Assembly: GCA_949152475.1 (NCBI GenBank)
Contig: OX424564.1
Coordinates: forward strand, 40,174,165-40,238,164
Direction: 5' to 3'
Length of the DNA stretch: 64,000 nt
Source: Terebella lapidaria
Taxonomy: Eukaryota; Annelida; Polychaeta; Terebellida; Terebellidae
Shown here: piece after piece, positions 19,497 through 58,749 of the stretch
Layout: each line of letters starts with the position of its first letter
How positions within the stretch are numbered: the stretch's first letter is position 1
Position numbers and translations under genes: made by a program
Notes under the pieces: generated by a model
Told to the model about the DNA's origin: nothing
The model's database searches: none
Seen by the model: only the letters and a program-made list of their open reading frames with translations

Positions 19497-19534
19497 AAGG
19501 CATTTCGGCAGAAATGCCTTTATGGTTTTAGCAG

Positions 19535-19567
<33 letters not shown>

Positions 19568-25525: not shown

Positions 25526-27062
25526 AGGTTACCGGACCTTTGGTCCGATAACCTATTGGCATGGCGTTGCGTCCGTCGTCCGTCCGTCCGTCCGTCCGTC
25601 CGTCCGTCCGTCCGTCCGTCCGGCGTTAACATTTTTATCTTTAAAGTTAACGATCGAATCTTTCTGAAATTTTGCACAAAAATGCCTAAAAATATTTTGA
25701 GAAGGAGGTATTTTTTTGTTTTTTGATTTTCGCATTTTTTTCAAAATGGCGGCCGTTTTTGTCGAAAAACGATCAATTTTGGACTTTGACGGCCATTTTC
25801 TCAAAAACTGTCTGATCAGTTTTGAGTTTTTGGTTTCAAAAGATTCCCCTCATATACCTCTGTGATATGTATAAGTTTGGTTGCCCTAAATCTGCCGGTT
25901 TTCGTGTGGCGGCCATTTTGAATTTTTGGCGGGTCGGCGAAAAAAAATTTTTCCGCCCCAGATCGCATTACTATCCATTTTGGGCCATTTCTAGAGCAAA
26001 AAAAATTTTCACCCTTTGAAAAAAATTTTGGACTTAGAAAATTTTCGGCACTTTTTCCCTTCATAATGGGAGCTGTCCGGACTGTACTCATAGAACGCTT
26101 GAAGATAGAGCTTAGAAATTGGCACTTTCAAATGGGAAGTCATATATGGCGACTTGTGTGGTGACCTTGAAATTGACCTTGGATGACCTTGAAAGGTCAA
26201 AACAGCCATTTTTGGGTCGAAAAACGCTCAAATTTGCACCTGGTCTGTATTTTCTCAAAAGCTCTCTGATCAGTTTTGAGATTTTTGCTTAAAAAGATTC
26301 CTCTTATATACCTCTGCGACATGTATAAGTTTTGTTGCCCTTGAATCGCCGATCTCAGTGTGGTGGCCATTTTGAATTTTTGACGAGTCGGCGAAAAAAT
26401 TTTTTTTCGCCCCAAATAACATTACTATCCATTTTGGGCCATTTCTAGGCAAAAAAAATTTTTCACCCTTTGAAAAAAATTTTGGACTTGGAAAATTTTC
26501 GGCACTTATTTCCTTCATAATGGGAGCTGTCAGGACTGTACTCATAGAACGCTTGAAGATAGAGCTTAGAAATTGGCACTTTCAAATCGGAAGTCATATA
26601 TGGCGACTTGTGTGGTGACCTTGAATTTGACCTTGGATGACCTTGAAAGGTCAAAACAGCCATTTTGGGGTCAAAAAATGCCCAGATTTGCCTTTGTAGA
26701 TGAAATGCTTGCAGATAGAGCTCCTGTTTGCATTATGAACATATAGGAAGACATATATGGCACAACTAATGATGACCTTGAACTTGACGTCAGATGACTT
26801 TGAGTGCCAAATGTCTGACTTGGAATGTGTAAATTGACCTGAGCGGCCTAAACGATTCCACCCAACATATAGAATATCAAATGCCGCACACATACATGTA
26901 ATGGTTACATCGAAGTTCATACGGATGACCTTGATTGGTAAATCCCAAGGTCATATGTTTACACTGCGAACCTTGATTGGTAAATCTCAAGGTCTGTTAC
27001 CTGCCAATGCTGCCATGGCCAAACCAAAATTGTCCGGTAACCTATCTTAGCCTTTGGGCTAA
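25526..27062 (+). mobile_element. Helentron-like family A, copy A1
   Basis: 5' hairpin AGGTTACCGGACC-TTT-GGTCCGATAACC, then a (GTCC)n tract (25570-25621), a core with repeated 'GGCGGCCATTTTGAATTTTT' blocks and TGACCTTG motifs, the inverted arm copy GTCCGGTAACCTA near 27032, a small TTAGCC/GGGCTAA hairpin, and a CTAA end followed by a T-run. Nearly identical to A4 at 31181, so recent. Frames of 60-90 aa within it recur in all copies and are not genes. Confidence 0.88.
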
Positions 27063-27222: not shown

Positions 27223-28307
27223 AGGTTACCGGACCTATGGTCCGATAACCTATTGGCATGGCGTTTTCGGCGACATCGGCATCGTCTGTTCACATTTTTA
27301 GCTTACCGGCCCATAAGGGCCGATAAGCTATTGTCGTGGTTTTTCGTCCGTCGTCGTTGTCGTCGTCCGACACATAATCTGTTAACATTTTTTATCTTTT
27401 TTTCGGGCTGATGAATTTGTCCATAAATTTGTGTGAATATGTATTGGGTCAATACCCCCAGACGTTTTTTCATTTTTTTAATTGAATCGATTATGCAGTT
27501 TTGGCGGCCATTTTTACGCCGAAAATGGCTGTTTTTGCATGTTTTCAAATTTAAAAATTATTTTCTCAAAAACTGTCTGATCAGTTTTGAGATTTTAGTT
27601 TCAAAATGTTCCCCTCATGTATCTTTATAATGTGTATAAGTTTCGATGCTCTTGAATCGCCGGTCTGCGTGTGGCGGCCATTTTGATATTGTTGACGTGG
27701 CCCAAATAATACTTTCCCATGTTAAATTCTCCTATGCTTTATAATGGGCCACAATGTTCTTGATATCTCACTTAATATTGAGATTAGAGACTCGGAATCA
27801 GTTGTGGACATATAGGAAATGATATATATGCTGAATATTCTCGTGACCTTGAATTTGACCTTTAACCTCATTTTCAAGGTCAGAGCACAAAATGGCCAAT
27901 ATCTCGCTTATTATTGACTTTACAGCTTAGGAATCAATTGTGGACATATAGGAAGTGATATATGCTGAATATTTTCGTGACCTTGAATTTGACTTTTGAC
28001 CTCATTTTCAAGGTCTCACAGGACAAAATGGCTAATATCTTGTTTATCATCAACTTTGCAACTTAGGATTCAATTTTGGACATACAGCAAATGATAGATG
28101 CTGAATATTCTGATGACCTTTAATTTGACTTCTGATTTCATTTTCAAGGTCACAGGACTAATATCTCTCTTATTATTGAATTTGCAGCTTAGTAATCAAT
28201 TGTGAGCTTATAGGAAATTGAATTTGACCAGTGACCTCATTTTCAAGGCCATGGAACAAAATAGCTATTATATATTGTCCGGTAACCTATCTTAGCCCTT
28301 GGACTAA
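27223..28307 (+). mobile_element. Helentron-like family A, copies A2/A3
   Basis: A2 starts with the family hairpin (27223) and 77 bp later meets a second, different 5' hairpin, AGCTTACCGGCCC-ATAA-GGGCCGATAAGCT (27300), with its own GTCGTCGTCC tract (A3). Only one 3' end follows, GTCCGGTAACCTATCTTAGC near 28278, which matches A2's arm and not A3's. The core has about three 134-bp tandem units (TATAGGAAATGATATATGCT ... TGACCTTGAATTTGACC). A3 therefore lacks its own 3' end or has been joined to A2 sequence. Confidence 0.8.
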
Positions 28308-28846: not shown

Positions 28847-29241
28847 ATTTTATACATCACCAATCTAAACTACTACATGCTCCTTTTCAATCCTTTGGAT
28901 CGTTCTGGATAGAAATTCCAAACTGAAAGCTAGGCATGATCGTCTGCCTGCATGACTCGAGCACTCCTTTTGCCACCGAAAACTGCCGCACATATGCGCG
29001 CGCAGCTGTGCAGAAGCTTCACTTTTCCGTCCCACCGCCATTTTTGTTGGCAGCTTTGGATATTTGGTCCCGGTGAATTCGTAAAACTTAGTCTGCAAAC
29101 TAGTTATTTACGATACCGTAGTTATTCAATTAGTTCGAACAGCTAAAAATAATTGTATCCCCCCGAACAAAGTTCGGCGGATACTATGGATTTGGCTTCG
29201 TCGTCCGCGTCCGTGTCCGCGTCCGCGTCCGCAGAGATTTT

Positions 29242-29760
29242 CTTGTGAACGCGCTACAGGCCGCAATTCTCACCCGATCACCATTATTTTTTGCAGGCAC
29301 ATATATAATGGTAAGATCCCGACACCAATCGATTTTGGTTGCCGTGGCAACTGAATTGGTCGTTTGGGGACACATTTTGCATTGAAAACAGCCTGTTTGA
29401 GACACATGGCTTGTGAACGCGCTACAGGCCGCAATTCTCACCCGATCACCATTATTTTTTGCAGGCACATATATTATGGTAAGATCCCGTCACCAATCGA
29501 TTTTGGTTGCCGTGGCAACTGAATTGGTCGTTTGGGGACACATTTTGCATTGAAAACAGCCTGTTTGAGACACATGGCTTGTGAACGCGCTACAGGCCGA
29601 GATTCTCACCCGATCACCATTATTTTTTGCAGGCACATATATTATGGTAAGATCCCGTCACCAATCGATTTTGGTTGCCGTGGCAACTGAATTGGTCGTT
29701 TGGGGACACATTTTGCATTGAAAACAGCCTGTTTGAGACACTTGGCTTGTGAACGCTCTA
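29242..29760. repeat. 168-bp tandem repeat in B1
   Basis: Three near-identical units starting CTTGTGAACGCGCTACAGG at 29242, 29410 and 29578, then a partial fourth. B2 has the same unit at 55037 and 55205. Confidence 0.92.
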
Positions 29761-30309
29761 CAGATGGCAATTTTTTACGAATCTCGATAATATTTGGAAG
29801 TGTTGTTGGGAAGGGCTGTCACACGAAACCAATCGTTTTTTAGAATGATCATATAAATATTAATATGTTAACAGCCTAACTTATTACAGAATTCTGAAAT
29901 ATCCATTTTGACATGTACGATCATTCCAATAGCCTGTACAGTGGAAGGTAATGACACTGGTTTCTTGTTCAGAATGGAGAACTGAAGTTTTCAGTGAAAA
30001 CAGGACAATATTACTGAATAAGTTAACATTAGTTTTATTAGTTAAGTCTATTATTTTCCACAATAAAAATAGTTAAGACGAGAAACGTTTATTATTAAGC
30101 TCAACAAGGTAAAGGTTTTGTCCAGTACAAATTTCATGGGTGTAACTGAATAAGTTAACATTATTTTTAATAGTTAAGTCTATTATTGACCACAATGAAA
30201 ATAGTTAAGACAAGAAATATTTATTATTAACCTCAACAAGGTAAATGTTTTGTCCAGTACAAATTTCATTGGTGTAACTGAATAAGTTAACATTATTTTC
30301 ACTAGTTAA

Positions 30310-31024
30310 AGACCTAGTAGCATGCCGATGAAAGTGCTTTTCATTTAGTCCATTATGAATAGTTATCTGTAAATTCGAAAGAATTTTACAAATACAATCA
30401 ATGGGTTTCGATATATTGAATCAAATAGGCACTCCTTCCGTAAATTGCCGAAGATTTCGATCACGATTTTAGTATGGGTCACGTGGTTTGTGACGTCATT
30501 TGAGGCAGTACTGAAAGTACATGTAGCCAACAAGGTAAACTGCATGTCGCATATTCATTCTCGTTGTGTATGTTTGACAATTCAAGTGAACGGGTGAGAT
30601 GGTTGGGATACGGCATTTTTTGTCTTGATATTTAGAATCAGTACTATTCATTCTGCCAGAAGGGAGGTTTGTTGAATTGCAAGATGTCCAGTATCTGTTG
30701 GTTTTCACGTGTTTTCTTTTGAATCTCATGCATTTTGGAGTGGTTTTCTATCTTTGAGCTGACCTCCCAAATTACGTGTTTTACGTTTTTGGCCAGCCAT
30801 CAGAGCACGTTTTGCCTCAACTGACGTCACGATTACGGAAACTGCCGAAGCTAGTTTTTTCATCGGCATGAGAAGGCGATTGCAATACCGGCTCAATATA
30901 CTCGATTATATGTCGATGTTATTAATTACCAATTAACGCGAACATCTTTTTTATCACCAAATATCCACAATGCCTTTATCCGAACAGGAATAAACCCATA
31001 TAATGGTACCTTGCTACTATGACT
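30310..31024. mobile_element. TTAA-flanked element (piggyBac- or Kolobok-like MITE)
   Basis: Inserted in B1's repeated block: TTAA at 30306-30309 and 31025-31028, terminal inverted repeats AGACCTAGTAGCATG / CTTGCTACTATGACT (imperfect), and inner inverted repeats CATGCCGATGAAA / TTTCATCGGCATG (near 30320 and 30858). The same B block elsewhere (near 55935) has a single TTAA, the empty site. 715 bp, no transposase. Confidence 0.85.
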
Positions 31025-31295
31025 TTAAGTCTATTATTGACCACAATAAAAATAGTTAAGTCTATTATTGACCACAATAAAAATAGTTAAGATGAGAAAT
31101 ATTTATTTTTAAGCTCAACAAGGTGAAAGTATGTCCAGTACAGATTTCATGGGTGTACTGAATAAGTTAACATTATTTTTAGGTTACCGGACCTTTGGTC
31201 CGATAACCTATTGGCATGGCGTTGCGTCCGTCGTCCGTCCGTCCGTCCGTCCGTCCGTCCGTCCGTCCGTCCGTCCGTCCGGCGTTAACATTTTT

Positions 31296-32872
31296 AGGTT
31301 ACCGGACCTATGGTCCGATAACCTATTGGCATGGCGTTGCGTCCGTCGTCCGTCGTCCGACGTCCGTCGTCGTCCGTCGTCGTCCGTCGTCGTCGTCGTC
31401 CACATTTTTATCTTTTTTGTTTACGAGCGAATTCTTCTGAAATTTTGCACAAAAATACTTAAAAATAATTCAAGAAGGAGGTATTTTTTAGTTTTTTGAT
31501 TTTCGCATTTTTTTCAAAATGGCGGCCGTTTTCGACGAAAAATGCCTGATTTTGGACTTTGGTGGCCATTTTCTCAAAATCTGTTCAGTAACTTTTTTTC
31601 TTTTTGATACATAACACTCCTGATATGTACTCCTATGATGTCTATAAATTTCGTTGCGCTTGAATCGCTCGAAGTGGACCATTTTGGCCCAAACTCGGCC
31701 CAAATGGGACTTTCCCATGTTAAATTCTCCTATGCTTTATAATGGGACACATTATGCCTAATTTCTCACTTAATATTGAGATTAGAGACTAGGAATCAAT
31801 TGTGGACATATAGGAAATGATATATGCTGAATATTCTCGTGACCTTGAATTTGACCTCTGACCTCAATTTCAAGGTCAGAGCACAAAATGTCTGATATCT
31901 CGCTTATTATCGACTCTACAGCTTAGGAATCAATTGTGGACATATAGGAAACGATATATGCTGAATATTCTGATGACCTTGAATTTGACCTTTGACGGCA
32001 TTTTCAAGGTCATAGGACAAAATGGCTAATATCTCGCTTGTTATCGACTTTACAGCTTAGGATTCAGTTATGAACATATAGGAAATGATATATGCAGATT
32101 ATTGTCATGACCTTGAATTTGACCTTTGACCTCATTTTCAAGGTCACAGGACAAAATGGCTGATATCTCACTTATTATCGACTCTACAGCTTAGGAATCA
32201 ATTGTGGACATATAGGAAATGATATATGCTGAATATTCTGATGACCTTGAATTTGACCTTTGACGGCATTTTCAAGGTCATAGGACAAAATGGTTAATAT
32301 CTCGCTTGTTATCGACTTTACAGCTGAGGAATCAGTTATGAACATATAGGAAATGATATATGCAGATTATTGTCATGACCTTGAATTTGACCTTTGACCT
32401 CATTTTCAAGGTCACAGGACAAAATGGCTAATATCTCACTTATTATCGATTTTACAGCTTAGGAATCAATAGTGGACATATAGGAAATGATATATGCTGA
32501 ATATTCTCGGACCTTGAATTTGAGCTCTGACCTCATTTTCAAGGTTCAAGGACAAACTGGCTCATATCTTGCTCCTCTATTGACTGTATGGCTTGGGAAT
32601 CAATTGTGGACATGATATAGAAAATGATATACACTGAATATTTTGATGACCTTGAATTTGACCTTTGCCCCTTCATTTTCAAGGTCACAGCACAAAATTG
32701 CTAATATCTCGCTGATTATTGAATTTACAGCTTAGCAATCAACTGTGGACATGATATATGCTTAATGTTATATATGCTGAATATTTTCTTGACCTTGAAT
32801 TCAACCAGTGACCTGGCTAACATCTAAAATATTAAACATTGTCCGGTAACCTATCTTTGGCCCTTGGCCTAA
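31296..32872 (+). mobile_element. Helentron-like family A, copy A5 (nested)
   Basis: Its hairpin starts in the T-run at the A4 site CGTTAACATTTTTATC; A1 shows the uninterrupted site. The core is mostly 134-bp tandem units (about 31790-32800) with TGACCTTGAATTTGACC and CATTTTCAAGGTCA. It ends GTCCGGTAACCTATC... CTAA. Subfamily as in A2, different from A1/A4 in the core. Confidence 0.87.
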
Positions 32873-33037
32873 TTTTATCTTTAAAGTTAACGATCGAATC
32901 TTTCTGAAATTTTGCACAAAAATGCCTAAAAATATTTTGAGAAGGAGGTATTTTTTTGTTTTTTGATTTTCGCATTTTTTTCAAAATGGCGGCCGTTTTT
33001 GTCGAAAAACGCTGAATTTTGGACTTTGACGGCCATT

Positions 33038-34421
33038 TGCTCAAAAACTGTCTGATCAGTTTTGAGTTTTTGGTTTCAAAAGATTCCCCTCATATACCTC
33101 TGTGATATGTATAAGTTTGGTTGCCCTAAATCTGCCGGTTTTCGTGTGGCGGCCATTTTGAATTTTTGGCGAGTCGGCGAAAAAAATTTTTTTCGCCCCA
33201 GATCGCATTACTATCCATTTTGGGCCATTTCTAGAGCAAAAAAAAATTTTCACCCTTTGAAAAAAATTTTGGACTTAGAAAATTTTCGGCACTTTTTCCC
33301 TTCATAATGGGAGCTGTCCGGACTGTACTCATAGAACGCTTGAAGATAGAGCTTAGAAATTGGCACTTTCAAATGGGAAGTCATATATGGCGACTTGTGT
33401 GGTGACCTTGAATTTGACCTTGGATGACCTTGAAAGGTCAAAACAGCCATTTTTGGGTCGAAAAACGCTCAAATTTGCACCTGGTCTGTATTTTCTCAAA
33501 AACTCTCTGATCAGTTTTGAGATTTTTGCTTAAAAAGATTCCTCTTATATACCTCTGCGACGTGTATAAGTTTTGCTGCCCTTGAATCGCCGATCTCAGT
33601 GTGGCGGCCATTTTGAATTTTTGACGAGTCGGCGAAAAAAAAATTTTTCGCCCCAAATAACATTACTATCCATTTTGGGCCATTTCTAGGCAAAAAAAAA
33701 TTTTCACCCTTTGAAAAAATTTTGGACTTTTCTCAAAAACTGTCTGATCAGTTTTGAGTTTTTGGTTTCAAAAGATTCCCCTCATATACCTCTGTGATAT
33801 GTATAAGTTTGGTTGCCCTAAATCTGCCGGTTTTCGTGTGGCGGCCATTTTGAATTTTTGGCGAGTCGGCGAAAAAAATTTTTTTCGCCCCAGATCGCAT
33901 TACTATCCATTTTGGGCCATTTCTAGAGCAAAAAAAAATTTTCACCCTTTGAAAAAAATTTTGGACTTAGAAAATTTTCGGCACTTTTTCCCTTCATAAT
34001 GGGAGCTGTCCGGACTGTACTCATAGAACGCTTGAAGATAGAGCTTAGAAATTGGCACTTTCAAATGGGAAGTCATATATGGCGACTTGTGTGGTGACCT
34101 TGAATTTGACCTTGGATGACCTTGAAAGGTCAAAACAGCCATTTTTGGGTCGAAAAACGCTCAAATTTGCACCTGGTCTGTATTTTCTCAAAAACTCTCT
34201 GATCAGTTTTGAGATTTTTGCTTAAAAAGATTCCTCTTATATACCTCTGCGACGTGTATAAGTTTTGCTGCCCTTGAATCGCCGATCTCAGTGTGGCGGC
34301 CATTTTGAATTTTTGACGAGTCGGCGAAAAAAATTTTTTTCGCCCCAAATAACATTACTATCCATTTTGGGCCATTTCTAGGCAAAAAAAAATTTTCACC
34401 CTTTGAAAAAATTTTGGACTT
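33038..34421. repeat. 692-bp tandem duplication inside A4
   Basis: Segment 33038-33729 is repeated at 33730-34421 with very few differences; A1 has it once. The junction carries the microhomology GGACTT. Recent, by its near identity. Confidence 0.9.
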
Positions 34422-35439: not shown

Positions 35440-36120
35440 CATTGATCAACTTTTACTTTGAATTTCAACTTGAGACCATGTTTGGCACAAATTATGAGTT
35501 AAAATATAACTTATGGTGAAAAATTCGATCTGGCTCCAATTTCGTCATCTTGAAATGCAGTTTTGGTCAACTTTTACTTTGAATTTCAACTTGAAAGCAT
35601 GTTTGGCACATATTATAAGTCGAAATATAACTTATGACGAAAAGTTCTATCTGGCTCCAATTTCGTCATCTTGAAATTCAGTTTTGGTCAACTTTTACAT
35701 TGAATTTCAACTTAATACCAAGTTTGGCACATATTATGAGTTGAAATATAACTCATGGCGAAAAGTTTGATCTGGGTCCAATTTCGTCATCTTGAAATGC
35801 AGTTTTGGTCAACTTTTAGTTTGAATTTCAACTTGAAATCAAGTTGGGCAGGTATTATGAGTTAAAATATAACTCATGACGAAAAGTTTGATCTGGCTCC
35901 AATTTTGTCATCTTGGAATGCAGTTTCGATTAACTTTTACTTTGAATTTCAACTTGAAACCATGTTTGGCACATACATGTATTATGAATCGAAATATAAC
36001 TTATGGTGAGAAGTTCAATCTAGCTCCAATTTCGTCATCTTGAAATGCATTTTTGGTCAAATTTCACTTTGAATTTCAACTTGGAACCAAGTTTGTAAAA
36101 TATTCTGAGTTGAAATATAA
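35440..36120. repeat. 121-bp tandem repeat in B1
   Basis: Units carry CAACTTTTACTTTGAATTTC, AACTTGAAACCA, GAGTTGAAATATAACTTATG and TCTGGCTCCAATTTCGTCAT, with starts near 35447, 35568 and 35690. The same array in B2 runs about 56130-57040. Confidence 0.9.
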
Positions 36121-42175: not shown

Positions 42176-42207
<32 letters not shown>

Positions 42208-45778: not shown

Positions 45779-47885
45779 CTCGTTGCGGGAAAGCGTAGGC
45801 TCTGTGGAAGGTTCAGTTCTTTCGGAATTCGATCTTCCACAACCTGGTCCAGTCGGGGGACGCCTGGCTCAGTTCGTCCAGAACTGGAGCGATCTGGCGT
45901 CGTCAGACAATTCAGTCGTGGCATGGGTGAAGTTCGGTCTCACCTTCAGATGGGAGGCTGGAAAACCACCGATCAGACCCAAAGCGTGGTTCTTCCCTGT
46001 GCCCGGCGATCGGGAAAAGTTTCAGCTTCTGCAGCACGAGGTGCAGCAGTTGCTAGAGAAACGTGCGATCGAGGTGGTCAAGGACGAGAGAGGATTCTAT
46101 TCTCTCATCTTCCTAGTGCCGAAAAAGACAGGCGGGTGGCGTCCCGTTTTCGATCTGTCAAACCTCAACAAATTCCTGATCATACCCAGGTTCAAGATGG
46201 AGTCGGCGCTTTCCGTCCAGAAAGCTCTGTCCAAGGGGAAGTGGGCAGTCAGTATCGACGTCAAAGACGCGTACTTACATGTGCCAATACACCCAGCCGA
46301 TCGGCGATACCTCAAGTTCGCCTTCGAAGGTTCGGTGTATCAGTTCAGGGTACTTCCTTTTGGATTAGCCACCGCCCCTTACGTGTTCACCCGTATCGTA
46401 AGGACGATGGCAGCCAGGTTTCGATCGGTTGGAATTCAATTCCACCATTATATCGACGATTGGTTAATCATAGCCGACTCCCCGTCTCAGGCTATAGAGC
46501 AATCCGGGTTCGTCCTCAGGTTGGCGACCAGCCTCGGCTGGATCCCCAATTGGGCGAAGTCTCATCTGTCCCCGACACAGAGGTTCGAGTATGTCGGGGT
46601 AGATTACGATCTAGAGCGAGGAGTAGCTCTTCCTCCGCGGAAGAGAGTTCTCAAGGCGATTGCGGCGATGGAGGTCGCGCTGACGCAGTCGTCGATCACA
46701 GCTCGACAGTTTCTGTCCATCATCGGTCTGTTGGCGTCGATGGAGAAACAGGTGCCGTTCGGCAGGTGCTTCCTCAGACCCATTCAATGGTGTCTAGCGT
46801 TGCAATGGCGGATACTCACCGATCGACTAGACCAAGTCGTATCGGTGGACGATCGTGCTCGGGAAGCAATGCATTGGTGGCGGGACCATCGGAATCTTTT
46901 CCGAGGGATGCCACTCGCGGAGTATCTGCCCGATCGGACCTTCTTCACCGATGCGTCAGAATTGGCTTGGGGAGCTCATATGGACGAGCACGAACTCTCT
47001 GCTGTGTGGAACACGAGCGAGAGGGCGTTGCACATCAATGTCCTAGAGCTGCGAGCGGTGAGACGTGCGTTCGAGATCTGGGGGCCTCAGAGTCCCCCAG
47101 GGACGAAGTGGTTGGTCTTCACAGACAACAGCACAGTAGTGGCGCACATAAACAAACAAGGTGGAACTCGGTCGAGTCAGCTTTGTTTGGAGGCCGAGTG
47201 TCTGATCAGGTTTGCCTTCAAGTACCGTCTGTTTATCAGGGCGAGGCACCTGCCGGGTCACAGGAATGTCCTAGCGGACGCTCTGTCGAGACCGGACAAG
47301 ATCATAGGCACGGAGTGGAGTCTGCATCCGGGGGTGTTTCGGCGCGTTTGTCAGGCGTTCGGGACACCGAACATAGACCTGTTCGCAACCTCTCGGAATC
47401 ACAAGCTCCCGGTCTACTTCTCACCTCTGCCAGAGAGCGAGGCACTGGCTGTGGACGCGATGTCTCAGTCGTGGGACGGGATGTTCGGGTATGCGTACCC
47501 GCCAACTCGATTCCTAACAGAAGTGCTGCACAAAGTAGCCAGGTCTCAGTGCGAGATTCTGTTGGTGGCGCCATGCTGGCCGATGCAGGCGTGGTTCCCC
47601 CTGCTACTGTCCCTCCTGATCGATGTACCACGGGTTCTCCCGATCGAGGACAGTTTGCTGAAGCAACCGGGGCGGGATATATTTCACGATTCCGTCCACG
47701 TGCTCAAATTACACGTCTGGAGGCTATCGAGCGATCCTTCCAGGAGGCAGGATTTTCTCAGCAGGTGTCCGTACATCTCGCGAGAAAGAATAGGAGATCC
47801 TCCTCTAAAACGTATGAGGCTAAATGGAGAGTATTCGTACGTTGGTGTAACGGAAGGCGCATTGATCCGCTCTCTGCCCCTCTGA
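45288..47885 (+). CDS. DIRS inner copy RT / RNase H frame
   Basis: Open frame overlapping the end of ORF1 in another phase; recognisable homology begins at about 45900. Reverse transcriptase has the YIDDW active-site motif; RNase H has TDAS, ELRAV and TDNS. After it comes the DIRS-type domain with NIDLFATSRNHKLP and APCWPMQAW, often annotated as a DAM-methyltransferase-like region. It copies element RNA into DNA. The true start is not evident; the part overlapping ORF1 may be untranslated. Confidence 0.88.
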   Translation: MWTRRIWRRGVAPTYMQHSASWPEWSMLLSVTVRTWAHNWISPCVMLISVCLTCPLRTSLSYVGGRFFQAIPTPTSLDRIFPSCGNISGMRLWPRLCLGSRRGLGQARRPRVRSLPNLRHHMHPLLRSRPFVGRSLPLPRGMASAEAKGVDASRAKGKLLVRSDSLRESVGSVEGSVLSEFDLPQPGPVGGRLAQFVQNWSDLASSDNSVVAWVKFGLTFRWEAGKPPIRPKAWFFPVPGDREKFQLLQHEVQQLLEKRAIEVVKDERGFYSLIFLVPKKTGGWRPVFDLSNLNKFLIIPRFKMESALSVQKALSKGKWAVSIDVKDAYLHVPIHPADRRYLKFAFEGSVYQFRVLPFGLATAPYVFTRIVRTMAARFRSVGIQFHHYIDDWLIIADSPSQAIEQSGFVLRLATSLGWIPNWAKSHLSPTQRFEYVGVDYDLERGVALPPRKRVLKAIAAMEVALTQSSITARQFLSIIGLLASMEKQVPFGRCFLRPIQWCLALQWRILTDRLDQVVSVDDRAREAMHWWRDHRNLFRGMPLAEYLPDRTFFTDASELAWGAHMDEHELSAVWNTSERALHINVLELRAVRRAFEIWGPQSPPGTKWLVFTDNSTVVAHINKQGGTRSSQLCLEAECLIRFAFKYRLFIRARHLPGHRNVLADALSRPDKIIGTEWSLHPGVFRRVCQAFGTPNIDLFATSRNHKLPVYFSPLPESEALAVDAMSQSWDGMFGYAYPPTRFLTEVLHKVARSQCEILLVAPCWPMQAWFPLLLSLLIDVPRVLPIEDSLLKQPGRDIFHDSVHVLKLHVWRLSSDPSRRQDFLSRCPYISRERIGDPPLKRMRLNGEYSYVGVTEGALIRSLPL

Positions 47886-48784
47886 ATGCAGTGCTAGACT
47901 TTCTCTGCTATCTCTTTGATAGGCTTAATTTGAAGCCTACTACGATCGAGGGATACAGGTCCATGCTGGGCCCTGTATTCCGTGCTAGGGGGATCGATTT
48001 AACTAATAATCGTATCCTTGCTGATCTCTTGGCGTCCTTTAGGACGCAAAGGCCACGTGGAGTTCCTACTCTACCGGATTGGGACATGGCTTTTGTGCTA
48101 TATTGTCTTACTAAAGCACCTTGGGAGCCTCTCAAGGAAGTTTCCTTGCAGAGGTTAACTCTTAAGACTTTCCTGCTAGTTATGCTAGCAAGTGGTCGAA
48201 GACGCTCAGATGTCGCGGCGATCGACGTATCGCGAGTCGCATTTGGCGCGGATGGGTCCGTTTCCTTATACCCAGTACGTGATTTTATGCCTAAAACACG
48301 TGCTGCAGTTGAGGGCGGGAAAGCGTTCTCCCCTATCGTAATTCCGTCACTGGGCGGTTACGTAGGACGGAATGAGCCGGACGCTCTATTGTGTCCGGTA
48401 AGAGCGCTGAAAATCTACATCGATCGTACCAGATCGATCAGGAAAGATCGCAAGCGATTATTTATTTCCTATCAGCCTAACAGGGCTACGGATATCTCCA
48501 CAGCTACACTATCCCGATGGGTGAAGGTTGTAGTGAGGACTGTCTATGCGGAATCAGGTGCTGACGATCGAGTCACTTACAAAATATCGTCCCACCAAAT
48601 CCGACACATCTCGATGTCTTTGGCGGCCAGGTCGAATATTCCGTTGGAATATATCGTGAGGGCTGGAATGTGGACTAATTCTACGACATTCATCGGGTTC
48701 TATCTGTCCAATGCTGCCGAACTTCAGGACCAGTCGTCCAGATTTAGACTGGGTCCGCTGGTCGTAGCGCAAGCTGTTGTTTGA
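45923..48784 (+). CDS. DIRS inner copy tyrosine recombinase frame
   Basis: The open frame overlaps the RT frame over most of its length, as known for DIRS elements. The recognisable tyrosine-recombinase domain is confined to about 47690-48784: N-terminal SAM-like segment (SSKTYEAKWRVFVRWCNG), catalytic Arg in the GRRRSD segment, HQIRH box and a C-terminal Tyr in GFYL. It would integrate the circular DNA. The upstream half of the frame is probably only the shadow of RT. Confidence 0.85.
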   Translation: MGEVRSHLQMGGWKTTDQTQSVVLPCARRSGKVSASAARGAAVARETCDRGGQGRERILFSHLPSAEKDRRVASRFRSVKPQQIPDHTQVQDGVGAFRPESSVQGEVGSQYRRQRRVLTCANTPSRSAIPQVRLRRFGVSVQGTSFWISHRPLRVHPYRKDDGSQVSIGWNSIPPLYRRLVNHSRLPVSGYRAIRVRPQVGDQPRLDPQLGEVSSVPDTEVRVCRGRLRSRARSSSSSAEESSQGDCGDGGRADAVVDHSSTVSVHHRSVGVDGETGAVRQVLPQTHSMVSSVAMADTHRSTRPSRIGGRSCSGSNALVAGPSESFPRDATRGVSARSDLLHRCVRIGLGSSYGRARTLCCVEHEREGVAHQCPRAASGETCVRDLGASESPRDEVVGLHRQQHSSGAHKQTRWNSVESALFGGRVSDQVCLQVPSVYQGEAPAGSQECPSGRSVETGQDHRHGVESASGGVSARLSGVRDTEHRPVRNLSESQAPGLLLTSARERGTGCGRDVSVVGRDVRVCVPANSIPNRSAAQSSQVSVRDSVGGAMLADAGVVPPATVPPDRCTTGSPDRGQFAEATGAGYISRFRPRAQITRLEAIERSFQEAGFSQQVSVHLARKNRRSSSKTYEAKWRVFVRWCNGRRIDPLSAPLNAVLDFLCYLFDRLNLKPTTIEGYRSMLGPVFRARGIDLTNNRILADLLASFRTQRPRGVPTLPDWDMAFVLYCLTKAPWEPLKEVSLQRLTLKTFLLVMLASGRRRSDVAAIDVSRVAFGADGSVSLYPVRDFMPKTRAAVEGGKAFSPIVIPSLGGYVGRNEPDALLCPVRALKIYIDRTRSIRKDRKRLFISYQPNRATDISTATLSRWVKVVVRTVYAESGADDRVTYKISSHQIRHISMSLAARSNIPLEYIVRAGMWTNSTTFIGFYLSNAAELQDQSSRFRLGPLVVAQAVV

Positions 48785-49080
48785 ACCAGCTGGACAGAAA
48801 AGTCTTGGTTTTAACGTGCACGTGTATATAAGCAACGCTTTGTGTTTGTGTTTGAATTCTTTATGTTACGGTCTCAAGTAGAGTTCCGTTTTCCACCGAT
48901 GGGTGAAGAAGAAATTCGTGCATGTCGGAGGCAAGCGATCGCACCGCTAGGTGAGTATCTTTATTATTACTAAAGATATATTGAAAATGTAGCATTTTAG
49001 CGATTCGCTTGAAATCAAGACTATCGTCTGTTTTCATGACTCTCTAGCACTACTGCTCCACCGCCTATCCTTTGATTCTA

Positions 49081-49182
49081 AGGAGCATGTAGTAGTTTAG
49101 ATTGGTGATGTATAAAATAAACTTCCCAAATTTTAATTGTAAATTTGCCGTTTATTGTTATTACTCACCTCTAAACTACTAC
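49081..49182 (+). repeat. DIRS internal complementary region (inner copy)
   Basis: 49081-49122 is the inverse complement of the element's left terminus and 49123-49182 that of its right terminus, joined directly (AAATAAAC|TTCCCAAAT). This is the junction expected of a circularised element and the template used in DIRS replication models. The outer copy has the matching region near 57578-57680. Confidence 0.92.
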
Positions 49183-52100
49183 AGTAAAGGCCCTCCCATC
49201 CATCCCCGCCAGTTATGTGCTAGGGGCTTCCTTTTGTCGTTTGTTGGACAGAAAAGTGAAGCTTCTGCGCAGCTGCGCGCGCATATGCGCGGCGGTTTTG
49301 GCGGCAAAAGGAGCGCTCGAGTCATGCAGGCAGACGATCGTGCCTTGCTTTCAGTACGCGAATTTCTATCCAGAACGATCCAAAGGATCGAAAAGGAGCA
49401 TGTAGTAGTTTAGAGGTGAGTAATAACAATAAACGGCAAATTTACAATTAAAATTTGGGAAATTTAATACCTATTGAGATTAAAACAAATATCTGATGGA
49501 CATTTGTCTAGTGAGCAACTGCTATAATTTGAACTCTCACTCCCACCTGTGTTCAATAATCCTGGTATATGTATTATAATAACAGTCAAGTTTCACCATT
49601 AGAAAAGAAAAGAAAAATTGGGGGATGCCACAAAGCCTATAGGCTTTTATGTCTAGTTCTACGTTAATTTTCTACTGTATATATTTTGTCGTATACTGTA
49701 GTTTATATATTCGTAGTCCTCTTAGGGTTCTTTTTCAGCGCAGTCTCAGGTTTGCTTATTTTGCCCGCCCTGTTACTGTGTGTGGTTAGTTCCCTTTCGT
49801 GATCATGACTTCACAATCCTCCCTTGGTACCGGTGCCAATGGTGCCATGGACGAACGTCCATGCCCGAAGTGTCTGGTCAATACCCTCCGAGGAGGGGAG
49901 AAACACAGTTTGTGTTTCGACTGTTTGGACCATGGCCCGGTATCTATGGAGGATTTGAGGTGTGATCTGTGCCGTTTCTGGCGTCCCTCTTCCTTCGTGC
50001 AGGCGACTGCAAAGTATTCTGAAGCCTCGTTGGCTCGTCAGGATGCTTTGAGGCTTGCGGAAGCTTCGGCTTCGCAAGTCCGCCAGTCGCCCATGGAGGT
50101 GGAGACTCCGCCTGTGACGGCGCAGATTGCGTCCGGTGTTAGCCAGCCCCTGGGGCTAACACAGGACATGGTCAACGCGGCTGTGCAATCCTTCTTTGCA
50201 CAGTCGCTGTCGTCCCTTCAGGGTCCCCTCCTGCCGGGTCTCTCTTCCCAGCTTGGACAGGGAGTCCCGGACGGTTCTTCGGCTGCCCCTTCGTCGCAGG
50301 GAGAGCTTGCTCCCCCTGCTGGCAAGAAGTCGAAATCTTCTAAGAAGAAGGTTTCAGTTCTTGCCAAGGCGAAAGCAGCCAAGGAACGCACTCCACCTTC
50401 GTCGTCCCTCAGTCGGGGCCGATCGAGGTGGAGGGGTCCGTCGTCTCTTCCCCTGGGCCTTCCAAGAAGAGGAAGCGTGCTTCCTCTAAGCGCCGTGGTG
50501 CTGAGACCACATCGATTTTCGATGTGGCTCAGGCTTCGTCCGACCTCTCGGTGGGCGACGATCAGGCTTCGGGCTTCGATCGGCGGAGCATCTTGGATGG
50601 CTCATTCGGGTCCTCGGTCTCGAGGTTCGAGGGGGAAGAGTTCCCTTTGTTTGGGGGTGAGGCTCTCGATCGTTCGTGCGATCGGGAGTCTTCACTTGGC
50701 GGTCGTGCTCCTGGTCCTCGATCAGGGCACGATCGGGCGGGTGGTGCTGGGGTCGTTCCTCAGGACCACTCAAGTCCTGTGTACGCGGATGTAAGTCGCC
50801 GGACGGGCGCGATCGCTGAGCAGGCATTCCCTCGCCCGTCCTTTGATGTACCCTTGGGGTCATCGAGGTCTTTGATCGGACCTGTGAGGTCCAACGATCG
50901 GGGGGGTCGAGTGGAAGCTGATCAGGACTCGTCCTCCTCGGAGGATGAGACTTCCGATCAGGCCGGGGGTTCTAACTTCCGGTGGGCTTTGGAGTCGGTC
51001 GCAAGGCGTATGGACTTGCCGATCGATGCTCCAGGGCCCTCACGGGGAACCGGTAGGTTCGCATCGGCGCCAGTTCGTCGGCCGATCCGGCTCCCTGTGG
51101 CTCCCGCGTTGGTCAAGTCCTTCGACAAGATCAACAAGGGAGTTACGGCTAAGAAGGATGTGGCTCGTACGGAGTCGACATTCCCGACTAGCCGTGTTCG
51201 ACCTGAGTCGATCGACACCTATCGGACTGTAGAGTCCGAGGGTGGACATCAGACTTCCGTCCCGGTCGAAGACCCTAACCTTCACCTGCTTTCCCGGAAG
51301 CAGGGTACGGTCTGGTCAGCTCATGTGAAAAAGGCTCGCCTTTCTCACTGGCAGACGCTGTCTCATCAATTGATGGGGCAGCTCTCGTTGACGGATCACC
51401 TGACCACTTTGGTTCAGGAGTTTGTGGACGAGGCGGATCTGGAGGAGGGGAGTCGCGCCAACATTCATGCAGCACTCGGCGTCTTGGCCGGAGTGGTCCA
51501 TGCTGCTGAGCGTGACAGTGCGCACCTGGGCGCACAATTGGATCTCACCATGCGTGATGCCGATCTCCGTCTGCTTGACGTGTCCGCTACGGACGTCGCT
51601 GAGCTACGTGGGAGGCCGCTTTTCTCAGGCTATACCTACGCCAACCTCTCTCGATCGGATATTTCCGTCATGCGGGAACATCTCCGGGATGAGGCTATGG
51701 CCAAGGCTTTGCTTGGGAAGTCGGCGGGGTCTGGGACAGGCAAGAAGACCAAGGGTCAGAAGCCTGCCCAACCTCAGGCACCACATGCACCCGCTTCTGC
51801 GCAGCCGCCCTTTCGGGGGGCGCAGCCTCCCCCTCCTCAGGGGGATGGCAAGCGTGGAGGCAAAGGGGGTGGACGCTTCAAGGGCAAAGGGAAATCTTCT
51901 GCTAAGAAGTGACTCGTTGCGGGAAAGCGTAGGCTCTGTGGAAGGTTCAGTTCTGTCGGAATTCGATCTTCCACAACCTGGAGCGATCTGGCGTCGTCAG
52001 ACAATTCAGTCGTGGCATGGGTGAAGTTCGGTCTCACCTTCAGATGGGAGGCTGGAAAACCACCGATCAGACCCAAAGCGTGGTTCTTCCCTGTGCCCGG

Positions 52101-54949
52101 CGATCGGGAAAAGTTTCAGCTTCTGCAGCACGAGGTGCAGCAGTTGCTAGAGAAACGTGCGATCGAGGTGGTCAAGGACGAGAGAGGATTCTATTCTCTC
52201 ATCTTCCTAGTGCCGAAAAAGACAGGCGGGTGGCGTCCCGTTTTCGATCTGTCAAACCTCAACAAATTACTGATCATACCCAGGTTCAAGATGGAGTCGG
52301 CGCTTTCCGTTCAGAAAGCTCTGTCCAAGGGGAAGTGGGCAGTCAGTATCGATGTCAAGGACGCGTACTTACATGTGCCCATACACCCAGCCGATCGGCG
52401 ATACCTCAAGTTCGCCTTCGAGGGTTCGGTGTATCAGTTCAGGGTACTTCCGTTTGGAGTAGCCACCGCCCCTTACGTGTTCACCCGTATCGTAAGGACG
52501 ATGGCAGCCAGGTTTCGATCGGTTGGAATTCAATTCCACCATTATATCGACGATTGGTTAATCATAGCCGACTCCCCGTCTCAGGCTATAGAGCAATCCG
52601 GATTCGTCCTCAGGTTGGCGACCAGCCTTGGCTGGATCCCCAATTGGGCGAAGTCTCATCTGTCCCCGACACAGAGGTTCGAGTATGTCGGGGTAGATTA
52701 CGATCTAGATCGAGGAGTAGCTCTTCCTCCGCGGAAGAGAGTTCTCAAGGCGATTGCGGCGATGGATGTCGCGCTGACGCAGTCGTCGATCACAGCTCGA
52801 CAGTTTCTGTCCATCATCGGTCTGTTGGCGTCGATGGAGAAACAGGTGCCGTTCGGCAGGTGCTTCCTCAGACCCATTCAATGGTGTCTAGCATTGCAAT
52901 GGCGGATCCTCACCGATCGACTAGACCAAGTCGTATCGGTGGACGGTCGTGCTCGGGAAGCAATGCATTGGTGGCGGGACCATCGGAATCTTTTCCGAGG
53001 GATGCCACTGGCAGAGTATCTGCCCGATCGGACCTTCTTCACCGATGCGTCAGAATTGGCTTGGGGAGCTCATATGGACGAGCACGAACTCTCTGCTGTG
53101 TGGAACACGAGCGAGAGGGCGTTGCACATCAATGTCCTAGAGCTGCGAGCGGTGAGACGTGCGTTCGAGATCTGGGGGCCTCAGAGTCCCCCAGGGACGA
53201 AATGGCTGGTCTTCACAGACAACAGCACAGTAGTGGCGCACATAAACAAACAAGGTGGAACTCGGTCGAGTCAGCTTTGTTTGGAGGCCGAGTGTCTGAT
53301 CAGGTTTGCCTTCAAGTCCCGTCTGTTTATCAGGGCGAGGCACCTACCGGGTCACAGGAATGTCCTAGCGGACGCTCTGTCGAGACCGGACAAGATCATA
53401 GGCACGGAGTGGAGTTTGCATCCGGGGGTGTTTCGGCGCGTTTGTCAGGCGTTCGGGACACCGAACATAGACCTGTTCGCAACCTCTCGGAATCACAAGC
53501 TCCCGGTCTACTTCTCACCTCTGCCAGAGAGCGAGGCACTGGCTGTGGACGCGATGTCTCAGTCGTGGGACGGGATGTTCGGGTATGCGTACCCGCCAAC
53601 CCGGTTCCTAACAGAAGTGCTGCACAAAGTAGCCAGGTCTCAGTGCGAGATTCTGTTGGTGGCGCCATGCTGGCCGATGCAGGCGTGGTTCCCGCTGCTA
53701 CTGTCCCTCCTGATCGATGTACCACGGGTTCTCCCGATCGAGGACAGGTTGCTGAAGCAACCGGGGCGGGATATATTTCACGATTCCGTCCACGTGCTCA
53801 AATTACACGTGTGGAGGCTATCGAGCGATCCTTCCAGGAGGCAGGATTTTCTCAGCAGGTGTCCGTACATCTCGCGAGAAAGAATAGGAGATCCTCCTCT
53901 AAAACGTATGAGGCTAAATGGAGAGTATTCGTACGTTGGTGTAACGGAAGGCGCATTGATCCGCTCTCTGCCCCTCTGAATGCAGTGCTAGACTTTCTCT
54001 GCTATCTCTTTGATAGGCTTAATTTGAAGCCTACTACGGTCGAGGGATACAGGTCCATGCTGGGCCCTGTGTTCCGTGCTAGGGGGATCGATTTAACTAA
54101 TAATCGTATCCTTGCTGATCTCTTGGCGTCCTTTAGGACGCAAAGGCCACGGGGAGTTCCTACTCTACCGGATTGGGACATGGCTTTTGTGCTATATTGT
54201 CTTACTAAAGCACCTTGGGAGCCTCTCAAGGAAGTTTCCTTGCAGAGGTTAACTCTTAAGACTTTCTTGCTAGTTATGCTAGCAAGTGGTCGAAGACGCT
54301 CAGATGTCGCTGCGATCGACGTATCGCGAGTCGCATTTGGCGCGGATGGGTCCGTTTCCTTATACCCAGTACGTGATTTTATGCCTAAAACACGTGCTGC
54401 GGTTGAGGGCGGGAAAGCGTTCTCCCCTATCGTAATTCCGTCACTGGGCGATTACGTAGGACGGAATGAGCCGGACGCTCTATTGTGCCCGGTAAGAGCG
54501 CTGAAAATCTACATCGATCGTACCAGATCGATCAGGAAAGATCGCAAGCGGTTATTTATTTCCTATCAGCCTAATAGGGCTACGGATATCTCCACAGCTA
54601 CACTATCCCGATGGGTGAAGGTTGTAGTGAGGACTGTCTATGCGGAGTCAGGTGCTGACGATCGAGTCACTTACAAAATATCGTCCCACCAAATCCGACA
54701 CATCTCGATGTCTTTGGCGGCCAGGTCGAATATTCCGTTGGAATATATCGTGAGGGCTGGAATGTGGACTAATTCTACGACATTCATCGGGTTCTATCTG
54801 TCCAATGCTGCCGAACTTCAGGACCAGTCGTCCAGATTTAGACTGGGTCCGCTGGTCGTAGCGCAAGCTGTTGTTTGAACCAGCTGGACAGAAAAGTCTT
54901 GGTTTTAACGTGCACGTGTATATAAGCAACACTTTGTGTTTGTGTTATT

Positions 54950-57354
54950 GTATCCCCCGAACAAAGTTCGGCGGATACTATGGATTTGGCTTCGTCGTCC
55001 GCGTCCGCGTCTGCGTCCGCGTCCGCAGAGATTTTCTTGTGAACGCGCTACAGGCCGCAATTCTCACCCGATCACCATTATTTTTTGCAGGCACATATAT
55101 AATGGTAAGATCCCGACACCAATCGATTTTGGTTGCCGTGGCAACTGAATTGGTCGTTTGGGGACACATTTTGCATTGAAAACAGCCTGTTTGAGACACA
55201 TGGCTTGTGAACGCGCTACAGGCCGCAATTCTCACCCGATCACCATTATTTTTTGCAGGCACATATATTATGGTAAGATCCCGACACCAATCGATTTTGG
55301 TTGCCGTGGCAACTGAATTTGTCGTTTGGGGACACATTTTGCATTGAAAACAGCCTGTTTGAGACACATGGCTTGTGAACGCTCTACAGATGGCAATTTT
55401 TGACAAATCTCGATAATATTTGGAGGTGTTGTTGGGAAGGGCTGTCACACGAAACCAATCGTTTTTTAGAATGATCATATAAATATTAATATGTTAACAG
55501 CCTAACTTATTACAGAATTTTGAAATATCCATTTTGACATGTACGATCATTCCAATAGCCTGTACAATGGAAGGTAATGACACTGGTTTCTTGTTCAGAA
55601 TGGAGAACTGAAGTTTTCAGTGAAAACAGGACCATATTACTGAATAAGTTAACATTAGTTTTACTAGTTAAGTCTATTATTGTCCACAATAAAAATAGTT
55701 ACGACGAGAAACATTTATTATTAAGCTCAACAAGGTAAAGGTTTTGTCCAGTACAGATTTCATGGGTGTAACTGAATAAGTTAACATTATTTTTACTGGT
55801 TAAGTCTATTATTGACCACAATAAAAATAGTTAAGACAAGAAATATTTATTATTAACCTCAACAAGGTAAATGTTTTGTCCAGTACAAATTTCATTGGTG
55901 TAACTGAATAAGTTAACATTATTTTCACTAGTTAAGTCTATTATTGACCACAATAAAAATAGTTAAGTCTATTATTGACCACAATAAAAATAGTTAAGAC
56001 AAGAAATATTTATTATTGGGCTCAACAAGGTGAAAGTATGTCCAGTACAGATTTTATTACTGTGACCAAATAAGTTAACATTATTTTTTTGCTAGTTAAG
56101 TCTATTATTTATCACAATAGCTTTTTATGAAAACATTGATCAACTTTTACTTTGAATTTCAACTTGAGACCATGTTTGGCACAAATTATGAGTTAAAATA
56201 TAACTTATGGTGAAAAATTCGATCTGGCTCCAATTTCGTCATCTTGAAATGCAGTTTTGGTCAACTTTTACTTTGAATTTCAACTTGAAAGGAATATTTG
56301 GCACATATTATAAGTCGAAATATAACTTATGGTGAAAAGTTCGATCTGGCTCCATTTTCGTCATCTTGGAATGCAGTTTTGGTCAATTTTTAGTTTGAAT
56401 TTCAACTTGAAACCAAGTTTGGCACATATTATGAGTTGAAATATAACTTATGATGAAAAGTTCGATCTGGCTCCAATTTCTTCATCTTGGAATGCAGTTT
56501 TGGTAAACTTTTGGCTTGAATTTCCACTTGAAACCAAGCTTGGCACATATTATGAGTTAAAATATAACTTATGACAAAAAGTTCTATCTGGCTCCAATTT
56601 CGTCATCTTGAAATGCAGTTTTGGTCAACTTTCACATTGAATTTCAACTTAATACCAAGTTTGGCACATATCATGGGTTGAAATATAACTCATGGCGAAA
56701 AGTTTGATCTGGCTCCAATTTCGTCATCTTGAAATGCAGTTTTGGTCAACTTTTAGTTTAAATTTCAACTTGAAACCAAGTTGGGCAGGTATTATGAGTT
56801 AAAATATAACTCAAGACGAAAAGTTTGATCTGGCTCCAATTTTGTCATCTTGAAATGCAGTTTTGATTAACTTTTACTTTGAATTTCAACTTGGAACCAT
56901 GTTTGGCACATACATGTATTATGAGTCGAAATATAACTTATGGTGAGAAGTTCAATCTGGCTCCAATTTCGTCATCTTGAAATGCATTTTTGGTCAAATT
57001 TTACTTTGAATTTCAACTTGGAACCAAGTTTGATTCTGAGTTGAAATATAAATAGGTGAAAAGATTGATCTATCTGTATTTTCATTATTTTATCAAACAT
57101 GTCGAATGGAAATTCATATAAAGAGATTTCAGTAGTGATTTTGAATTCGACCTTCAATAACCTCGGAAAATCAGTGCAGCAATTTTGGTGGGGAAAAGAA
57201 AACAGTTGTGACTTGAGATTTAACATTTCTCTGGTAATCTTTTTTAGCCCTTGCTCTAGTTTTTCACACTTGACAGTGATATATTTGGGGAAACAAAGAT
57301 AATAGGGCTACGGGGGATACACCCAAGCGGTCGTAGGTGACCGGAAGCGTCTAG
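54950..57354 (+). mobile_element. Helentron-like family B, copy B2 (undisturbed)
   Basis: The best full-length family-B copy: hairpin GTATCCCCCGAAC-AAA-GTTCGGCGGATAC, CGTCCGCG tract, two 168-bp units, repeated GTTAAGTCTATTATTGACC blocks (about 55660-56110), an array of about eight 121-bp units (56130-57040), arm copy GGGGGATAC, hairpin CGGTCGTAGGTGACCG and CTAG at 57351-57354. It sits in the 3' non-coding part of the outer DIRS. No coding capacity. Confidence 0.92.
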
Positions 57355-58749
57355 TTTATGTTACGGTCTCAAGTAGAGTTCCGTTTTCCACCGATGGGTG
57401 AAGAAGAAATTCGTGCATGTCGGAGGCAAGCGATCGCACCGCTAGGCGAGTATCTTTATTATATTACTAAAGATATATCGAAAATGTAGCATTTTAGCGA
57501 TTCGCTTGAAATCAAGACTATCGTCTGTTTTCATGACCATCTAGCACTACTGCTCCACCGCCTATCCTTTGATTCTAAGGAGCATGTAGTAGTTTAGATT
57601 GGTGATGTATAAAATAAACTTCCCAAATTTTATTTGTAAGTTTGCCGTTCATTGTTATTACTCACCTCTAAACTACTACAGTAAAGGCCCTCCCATCCAT
57701 CCCCGCCAGTTATGTGCTAGGGGCTTCCTTTTGTCGTTTTTTGGACAGAAAAGTGCAGCTTCTGCGCAGCTGCGCGCGCATGCGCGGCGGTTTTGGCGGC
57801 AAAAGGAGCACTCGAGTCATGCAGGCAGACGATCGTGCCTTGCTTTCAGTACGCGAATTTCTATCCAGAACGATCCAAAGGATCGAAAAGGAGCATGTAG
57901 TAGTTTAGAGGTGAGTAATAACAATAAACGGCAAATTTACAAATAAAATTTGGGAATTTTGTTTGAATTAACATATTTTGGGCAACAGGGATGATAGGGC
58001 CACAGGGGGATACACCCACGCGATCATTGGTGACCGAATCGTCTAGTTTTGCTTGTCCTGATGTCAAAAAAAAAATCAACGACAATTTCGTTTTCTCCGT
58101 CCTGTTTGATTTCCGTCATCAAGCCCACCATGCATGTACTTTATTATGAACACCATCGAAAAGAGACGAAAACAGATAGATTTTCCTGGATCTCGAAGTT
58201 ATCAGAGGATGTTATGATAATAAAGTTATAGTCATGAATGTTTTATTTGAATAATTGATTTTTCAAAAACGTAATCATATAACTTAATTGAAGACAGTTT
58301 CGATCATCCATCAAAGACAATTGATGATTGATCCCTTCACTATTATACAGCTGATAACTAGTTACCATGAAAAATATTTTTATTTTAGACCGAACGAAGA
58401 TTTTGGCCAGCACCGTCTTTACCATTGATATTCCCCATTTGTAGGCACCCAAAGCGAGGGAAAGCTTACAGGGGGCGGATTTCACATTGAAACACGAAAT
58501 CTGTATGTTTTTTTGGTGGCAACCAAACTTTGTCACACTTGAATGATGATCGACTGATCACTGCTGATTGACCGATCGAGCTCGTAACTCTTCACTCCGC
58601 TTTGTGGAGATACAAGACTGTAATGTCAGTGAGGTTTTGAAATTTGTTCGCTTATAGGGTTCTGTCAAAATGGTCCAGTGCTTCGAAATACCAACATCAG
58701 AAGTTGAAGTGTCCATCCATATTTGAATTAGAACATTTATGGTGTCGAC

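Follow-up and report, generated by a model that had tools for sequence, protein, structure and literature searches.

In HINE/DINE-1 elements, as described by Thomas et al. 2014 (PMC4067079), there is a palindromic 5′ subTIR, an inverted copy of it near the 3′ end and a 3′ palindrome, insertion takes place at TT, some copies contain microsatellites or tandem repeats, and there is no coding capacity. The same traits were found in four element families, A to D, within a window of 64,000 nucleotides of the Terebella lapidaria genome (contig C11, positions 40174165-40238164; the genome searched comprises 761.6 Mb in 438 contigs). The sequences are different from those of HINE/DINE-1, and the subTIRs of the mite elements are placed ~38-60 bp from the 3′ end versus 18-33 here. 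Also, Culex HINEs are described in that source as >95% identical to a known helper, whereas here only the A-type 3′ end could be linked to a Rep-bearing element.

The Cg_HINE elements of Crassostrea gigas (PMC7492417) are similar to the families studied here in their 5′ subTIR with a complementary inverted repeat of 7-12 bp, GTCC/GTCY microsatellite, satellite-like core, 3′ subTIR and palindrome, as well as in the occurrence of related and unrelated families side by side; the difference is that families C and D contain poly-T instead of the GTCC/GTCY microsatellite. The oyster study reports 10 autonomous elements, none of which it relates to its HINEs. Bivalve pearl elements, by their description in the same article, contain short arrays of ~160-bp central repeats and were later re-filed as non-autonomous Helentrons. 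Helitron2 elements (Bao & Jurka 2013, PMC3627910) share with the window elements the asymmetric terminal inverted repeats (ATIRs), with the 3′ copy 20-30 bp from the end, and the hairpins at both ends; the copy-to-end spacing of 18-33 nt is nearer to this than to the 38-60 of the mite HINEs. Compensatory changes were reported in that work, and pairing of the ATIR arms was proposed to destroy the 5′ hairpin and to set the end point of replication. The Rep/helicase elements E33 and E17 of T. lapidaria differ from Helitron2 in having OTU and endonuclease domains (Helentron type). Hairpins and asymmetric inverted repeats are also known from FoHeli of Fusarium oxysporum (PMC5148889), whose joined ends have been reported experimentally, but host and termini are others (TCAG..ATTTT and others). 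Canonical Helitron1 elements start with 5′ TC, lack a 5′ hairpin and insert between A and T, whereas the elements studied here have 5′ hairpins, no TC start and a TT target.

Considering the design of the ends, the insertion sites and the Rep-bearing relatives together, the sequences indicate that families A-D are very probably non-autonomous Helentron-type (Helitron2/HINE) transposons. The interpretation given in the initial annotation was supported in part. Its Helentron/HINE affinity was supported by the same design on Rep/helicase-endonuclease elements, by TT or T-run empty sites and by a Rep-bearing segment with an A-type 3′ end. The pattern is real and its kind is already known, namely HINE-type non-autonomous Helentrons. 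The novelty lies in the sequences of the families, in the nesting order resolved here, in the presence of an A-type terminus on a Rep clade and in a mismatch kept in the hairpins. This bears on end recognition by Helentron-type elements and on the mover of abundant HINEs that carry tandem repeats. The latter question becomes testable because an A-type 3′ terminus is present on a Rep-bearing clade, while the kept mismatch provides a concrete handle on the published end-pairing proposal.

Terminal design and nesting of the window elements

The initial annotation had attributed one terminal design to four families with unrelated end sequences. The shared design was confirmed, and the quoted 5′ and 3′ sequences are present in the window. 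After pairing the ends by sequence and nesting, ten elements were recognized (four of family A, three of B, two of C and one of D), which are summarized in Table 1 together with other features. Each of the ten begins with a hairpin whose outer arm recurs in inverted form near the 3′ end, where there is also a small hairpin; the last letters, followed by TT, are CTAA or CTAG. Thus, the HINE combination of a palindromic 5′ subTIR with an inverted copy close to the 3′ end occurs in every one. The inverted copy begins 31-43 nt ahead of the 3′ end, with a copy-to-end gap of 18-33 nt, and in D it comprises 8 bp only. The palindrome near the 3′ end, another HINE trait, is TTAGCC..GGCTAA in A, CGGTCG..CGACCG in B, AAGGC..GCCTT in C and AAAGCC..GGCTTT in D.

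Table 1. Elements and other features of the window (positions within the 64,000 nucleotides)
Feature	Position	Strand	Description
A-like 5′ part	2624..3186	+	damaged hairpin
C-type 3′ end	7882..7921	-	inverted arm, hairpin, GTCTAG
C1	19497..22934	+	5′ hairpin 19497-19520, poly-T, 147-bp repeats, 3′ inverted arm 22895-22905, CTAG
A0	25526..27062	+	5′ hairpin, (CGTC)n, 454-bp repeats, 3′ inverted arm 27032-27044, 3′ hairpin, CTAA
A3	27223..28307	+	double 5′ end: A hairpin, then variant A′ hairpin ~27300; 136-bp repeats, A 3′ end
B2	29155..36423	+	5′ hairpin, CGTCCG tract, 168/132/121-bp repeats, 3′ inverted arm 36381-36390, GTCTAG; A1 and A2 nested
A1	31181..34994	+	in T-run of B2 132-bp repeat; host of A2
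A2	31296..32872	+	in A1 T-run; A0 is the empty site at the same place
C2	37145..38962	+	5′ hairpin 37145-37168, poly-T, 147-bp repeats, 3′ inverted arm 38923-38933, CTAG
B1	40346..58046 (3′ end inferred)	+	5′ hairpin at 40346, 81-bp repeats, 3′ inverted arm 58005-58014, GTCTAG
DIRS2	41662..57960	+	retroelement split by D and B3; source of filled sites
D	42129..49656	+	5′ hairpin 42129-42157, poly-T, 3′ inverted arm GGGATGCC 49622-49629, 3′ hairpin, GTCTAG
DIRS1	43061..49465	+	second retroelement copy, nested in D; source of empty sites for D and B3
B3	54950..57354	+	in DIRS2; 5′ hairpin, 3′ inverted arm 57312-57321, GTCTAG

Some other parts of the initial description had to be corrected. The end sequences are not all unrelated, as C and D are alike just inside the 5′ end (81/100 columns, much of it poly-T), and B, C and D have the terminus GTCTAG/TT in common (slashes mark element boundaries), so that A is the outlier. 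A tandem-repeat core, stated for every family, is absent for D from the TRF list. The arm word quoted for B corresponds to one copy and is one base short, the usual B arm being GTATCCCCCGAAC.

The nesting can be written as B1 > DIRS2 > D > DIRS1, DIRS2 > B3, and B2 > A1 > A2, with D inserted in DIRS2 and the interior of B1 formed by DIRS2 plus all its contents. The 3′ end of B1 was placed at 58046 because of the subtype match and the length of the remainder: in fetched copies with a printed end, the B 5′ subtype ..TTTGCG accompanies the 3′ subtype ..CACGCG, and the ~1.4 kb of B1 outside DIRS2 is within the range of other B copies. No 5′ partner was found for the minus-strand C-type 3′ end. The window also contains two large minisatellites (1-1180, 32 bp x 37 copies; 3401-6823, 45 bp x 76 copies) and a protein kinase exon at 12046-12717 (Pfam Pkinase, E 9e-52).

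Insertion sites, element boundaries and chance level

The two retroelement copies, which we presume to be DIRS-like, are 97.4-98.6% alike over long matches. Their domains include a reverse transcriptase (PF00078, E 1.7e-23) and a phage-integrase match that lies under its cut-off (E 3.6e-4). The empty site of D reads CAATAGTT/CTACG in DIRS1 and the filled site reads CAATAGTT/D/TTCTACG in DIRS2, i.e., TT was converted to TT..TT. Within the window, A0 provided the empty site for the insertion of A2 in the T-run of A1, and A1 is located in a T-run of a B repeat. For B3 in DIRS2 the empty site fits less exactly, a few letters being different in DIRS1. Insertion at TT or T-rich sequence without any other target duplication, as in HINEs, was thus found for D, A1 and A2, and less exactly for B3. 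The sites gained 2-5 extra T only, which is consistent with the published description of HINEs (PMC4067079). Outside the window, two A 3′ ends adjoin poly-T, one within a C copy and the other within a D copy (contig C1, positions 5259737 and 12268814), so that the target was again a T-run.

Concerning the copies of family B elsewhere in the genome, 40 5′ matches out of 1683 first-look candidates were scored and 30 were fetched. The 3′ tails were sought, over a readable distance of ~1.6 kb, by homology to the stretch beyond the arm, the arm itself not being used. A tail was within reach in 23/30 copies and the inverted arm was present in all 23 (20 perfect, 3 with one mismatch), while 7/30 had no tail within the readable ~1.6 kb. 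When counted via TCTAGTT, there were 21 tails, 18 of them with a perfect arm; some internal TCTAGTT words located ~95 bp ahead of the B 3′ end were without arm. Hence, copies elsewhere with 3′ ends devoid of the inverted arm, which would have spoken against the design, were not encountered among the B tails, nor was any linkage of the family ends to an unrelated transposase.

The chance level was estimated with a design scan that required TT plus a 10-nt arm (<=1 mismatch to the IR of the hairpin, loop 3-10) and an 8-nt inverted arm <=60 nt from CTARTT. On the plus strand it gave 8 distinct 5′ ends, corresponding to 8/10 elements; the two B copies were missed because their arm lengths differ. 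On the minus strand it gave one match, inside the family C repeats, which is probably spurious. None of 100 dinucleotide shuffles gave a match, and a stricter scan yielded 5 matches on the plus strand and 1 on the minus strand versus 0 in 60 shuffles. One may ask whether a window so rich in repeats would produce such pairs by accident. In this sense, the C and D words (12/13-mers) taken alone with 2 mismatches are at chance level, their counts being reached by 15 and 42 of 100 shuffles, and the minus-strand match also fits such a reading. Against it stand the 0/100 shuffles with the design, the arm in every B tail reached, and the empty sites that fix the boundaries. As the shuffles do not preserve the repeats of the window itself, the empty sites and the 23/23 B copies outweigh the shuffle result. 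An accidental origin is already refuted by the empty sites, and its probability is negligible.

Rep/helicase elements and the candidate helper of family A

The Rep domain PF14214 was matched by 150/150 scored candidates (234 candidates genome-wide), many of them in open frames of 2000-2866 aa. Element E33 (contig C11, ~12113626-12135835) is ~22 kb long, and its copies on contigs C2 and C14 display 100% identity over the 16.1 kb compared; the identity of the three copies indicates recent activity. E33 carries DUF6570, and a single open frame, scanned as three pieces, contains OTU (PF02338), Helitron_like_N (PF14214), PIF1 (PF05970) and Exo_endo_phos (PF03372, E 4.9e-9), i.e., the fusion of Rep/helicase with an endonuclease, often accompanied by OTU, that is typical of Helentrons. 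The 5′ end, read in the C2 and C14 copies, is TT/ACTTGACGAAAT..ATTTCGTCAAGT, followed by ATGTTGG, a GTTT-like tract and 325-bp repeats; the C11 copy lacks ~60 bp there. The 3′ end, read in the C11 copy, consists of ATTTCGTCAAGT, GGCCTATGGCC and GA/TTT, and this boundary was matched within 5 nt by 29/39 other places scored, the other 10 being more distant relatives. E33 thus has asymmetric terminal inverted repeats and hairpins at both ends. The 5′ end was read on the strand opposite to Rep, so that gene and element have opposite orientations; a reversed RepHel orientation is known in some Helitron2 elements (PMC3627910). An initial assignment of the right end of E33 as its 3′ end was rejected, as the comparison of copies identified it as a 5′ end in minus-strand orientation. 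At the 5′ end, E17 follows the same design as E33. The terminal design is therefore present on true Helentrons of the same genome, with sequences unlike those of A-D. Neither E33 nor the variant A′ of family A ends in CTAR. In the flanks of young Helentron copies (L075, L076, L077, L078, L079, L081), more 5′ ends were seen in tandem: on contig C2 the 3′ end of another element is joined head-to-tail with a 5′ end, a T-run lying between them, and an A-type 5′ end comes immediately after an A′ 3′ end in L081.

The presence of this design on Rep/helicase elements speaks against the view of A-D as MITEs or foldback elements that depend on a cut-and-paste transposase. The short inverted repeats, the lack of a long coding frame of their own, and the fact that pearl was initially called MITE-like (PMC7492417) would agree with that view. 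However, the symmetric terminal inverted repeats and the fixed target duplication of MITEs were not observed: the repeats are asymmetric, being terminal on the 5′ side but set back by 18-33 nt on the 3′ side, and only the 2-5 extra T mark the sites. A MITE origin is very unlikely.

A second Rep clade is represented by copies at C9:36049350 (frame of 2526 aa) and C14:35161006 (frame of 2514 aa). In a stretch read separately downstream of Rep, these copies are 92% alike over 1518 columns and diverge 4 nt past ..CTCCGGTAACCTTTCTAGCCCTTGGGCTAA, an A-type CTAA 3′ terminus oriented as the Rep gene; this boundary is based on two copies. The remaining sequence did not match the A elements of the window. 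Since the two copies stop being alike at an A-type 3′ terminus, which closes a Rep-bearing segment in both, the sequences point to the second clade as the likely helper of family A. Neither the 5′ end of this clade nor an A-type 5′ hairpin (AGGTTACCGGA..) was found in the upstream parts read, part of which reads N; both copies have repeats of the B type there, and an eroded 3′ end of that type. A sampled offset in the C14 copy and in a further copy on contig C2 gave family B and family A sequence, which were taken as separate insertions rather than as part of the clade, the one on C14 lying beyond the shared segment. E33 was rejected as the helper of A, because the A-type 3′ end it contains is internal, the Rep ORF is outside that A unit, and the ends of E33 itself are farther out. 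No helper of B, C or D was found among the matches listed. A comparison by eye of the listed places of A-D with those of PF14214, which excludes little, gave one B match (C11:41046065) whose distance to a Rep match (C11:41068772) is 22.7 kb; this was judged to be due to chance.

Paired changes, hairpin mismatch and end recognition

The 3′ pattern of family A occurs at 4351 exact places genome-wide (reversed control, 0), and A-type hairpins in which arm position 2 is not G occur at 1199. Among 100 of these variant hairpins listed, 71 were of the form A′ (arm AGCTTACCGGCCC, with matching IR), and the IR paired with arm position 2 in 87 and with position 10 in 93. An A′ 3′ end was present downstream in 3/6 fetched loci, as GCCGGTAAGCT in L083 (1069 bp) and L085 (881 bp) and as GCGGGTAAGCT in L081 (872 bp), and was not found in ~1.5 kb downstream at the other three. 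The distant arm matched the changed 5′ arm of the same element in L083 and L085; in L081 it did so except for one change. Arm, IR and distant 3′ copy all differ jointly between A and A′, which by itself is no demonstration of pairing, as an inverted binding site would look identical. Among eight loci obtained with a query containing both the A and the A′ 5′ ends, and therefore biased to A+A′ pairs, GTCCGGTAACC was found at L001, L002 and L006; L003 gave no match to the stricter 5′ pattern. Double 5′ ends of family A, 70-170 bp apart, recur (27223-27340 and 31181-31340; L087:6583 and 6753), one of them being the nested insertion of A2 in A1 and the A+A′ pair a repeated composite.

A mismatch is kept in several of the hairpins. 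In the 100 A-type variants listed, the arm C, fixed by the search pattern, is opposite to an A of the IR in 99 and to a G in 1. In family B, pair 7 of 13 is mismatched in 28/28 copies with the full-length arm (C/C in 23, C/A in 4, T/C in 1), two further copies with other arm lengths standing outside this count. In D, an A is opposite to a G. Where the hairpins of A, A′, B and D are mismatched, the 3′ copy would form a pair; the hairpins of C and E33 have no mismatch. This detail was not found in the literature searched, with queries that did not name the mismatch.

The proposal of the initial annotation that the structure, and not the sequence, is recognized holds in so far as paired changes do occur (A versus A′), but B, C and D share GTCTAG/TT and the hairpins of A, B and D keep a mismatch. 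Covariation does not decide the matter, because an inverted repeat covaries whether it is paired or bound twice. Judging from the sequences compared, structure alone is not the recognition signal. The same observations can be accommodated if the inverted arm serves Rep as a double-stranded binding site that occurs in opposite orientation at the two ends, with no pairing across the element and with the 5′ hairpin as an incidental feature. The covariation would be the same, the common terminus of B, C and D points to recognition of sequence, and the A variants, B and D all keep their mismatch. On the other hand, a plain site would need neither a local hairpin of at least 10 pairs, which was read in six of six families (A, A′, B, C, D, E33), nor the paired changes at the two arm positions (87 and 93 of the 100 listed). 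A mere binding site is thus possible, although not probable.

With A-D taken as non-autonomous Helentron-type elements, a Rep/helicase supplied in trans would nick at the T or TT beside the 5′ hairpin, and one strand would be peeled off by rolling circle up to a stop at the 3′ end, marked by the inverted arm, the small hairpin and CTAR/TT; the strand, or a circle, would then integrate at TT. When the ends meet, the 5′ hairpin may give way to pairing of the 5′ arm with the inverted arm of the 3′ end, as in the proposal of Bao & Jurka 2013. In joint folding of the 3′ end and the 5′ end as a single strand with DNA parameters, the ends were predicted to pair in 3/6 families (A, A′, C), and the local hairpin stayed in B, D and E33. 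The kept mismatch fits the 2013 proposal without proving it. An end-pairing switch as such was dropped as an unpublished idea, having already been proposed in that article (PMC3627910). A more specific form of it, which we consider doubtful, is that the 5′ hairpin would be deliberately imperfect, so that on meeting of the ends, on a circle or at the close of a rolling-circle round, the 3′ copy would displace the IR and a new stem would enclose the 3′ hairpin and the CTAR/TT joint, turning a start signal into a stop or re-cut signal. If true, this would be a self-sensing end switch that adds a thermodynamic bias to the pairing proposed in 2013.

Another observation concerns the letters right after the 5′ hairpin, which are TATTG in A and A′, TATGG in B and C, and TATGT in D, E33 and E17; these words are short.
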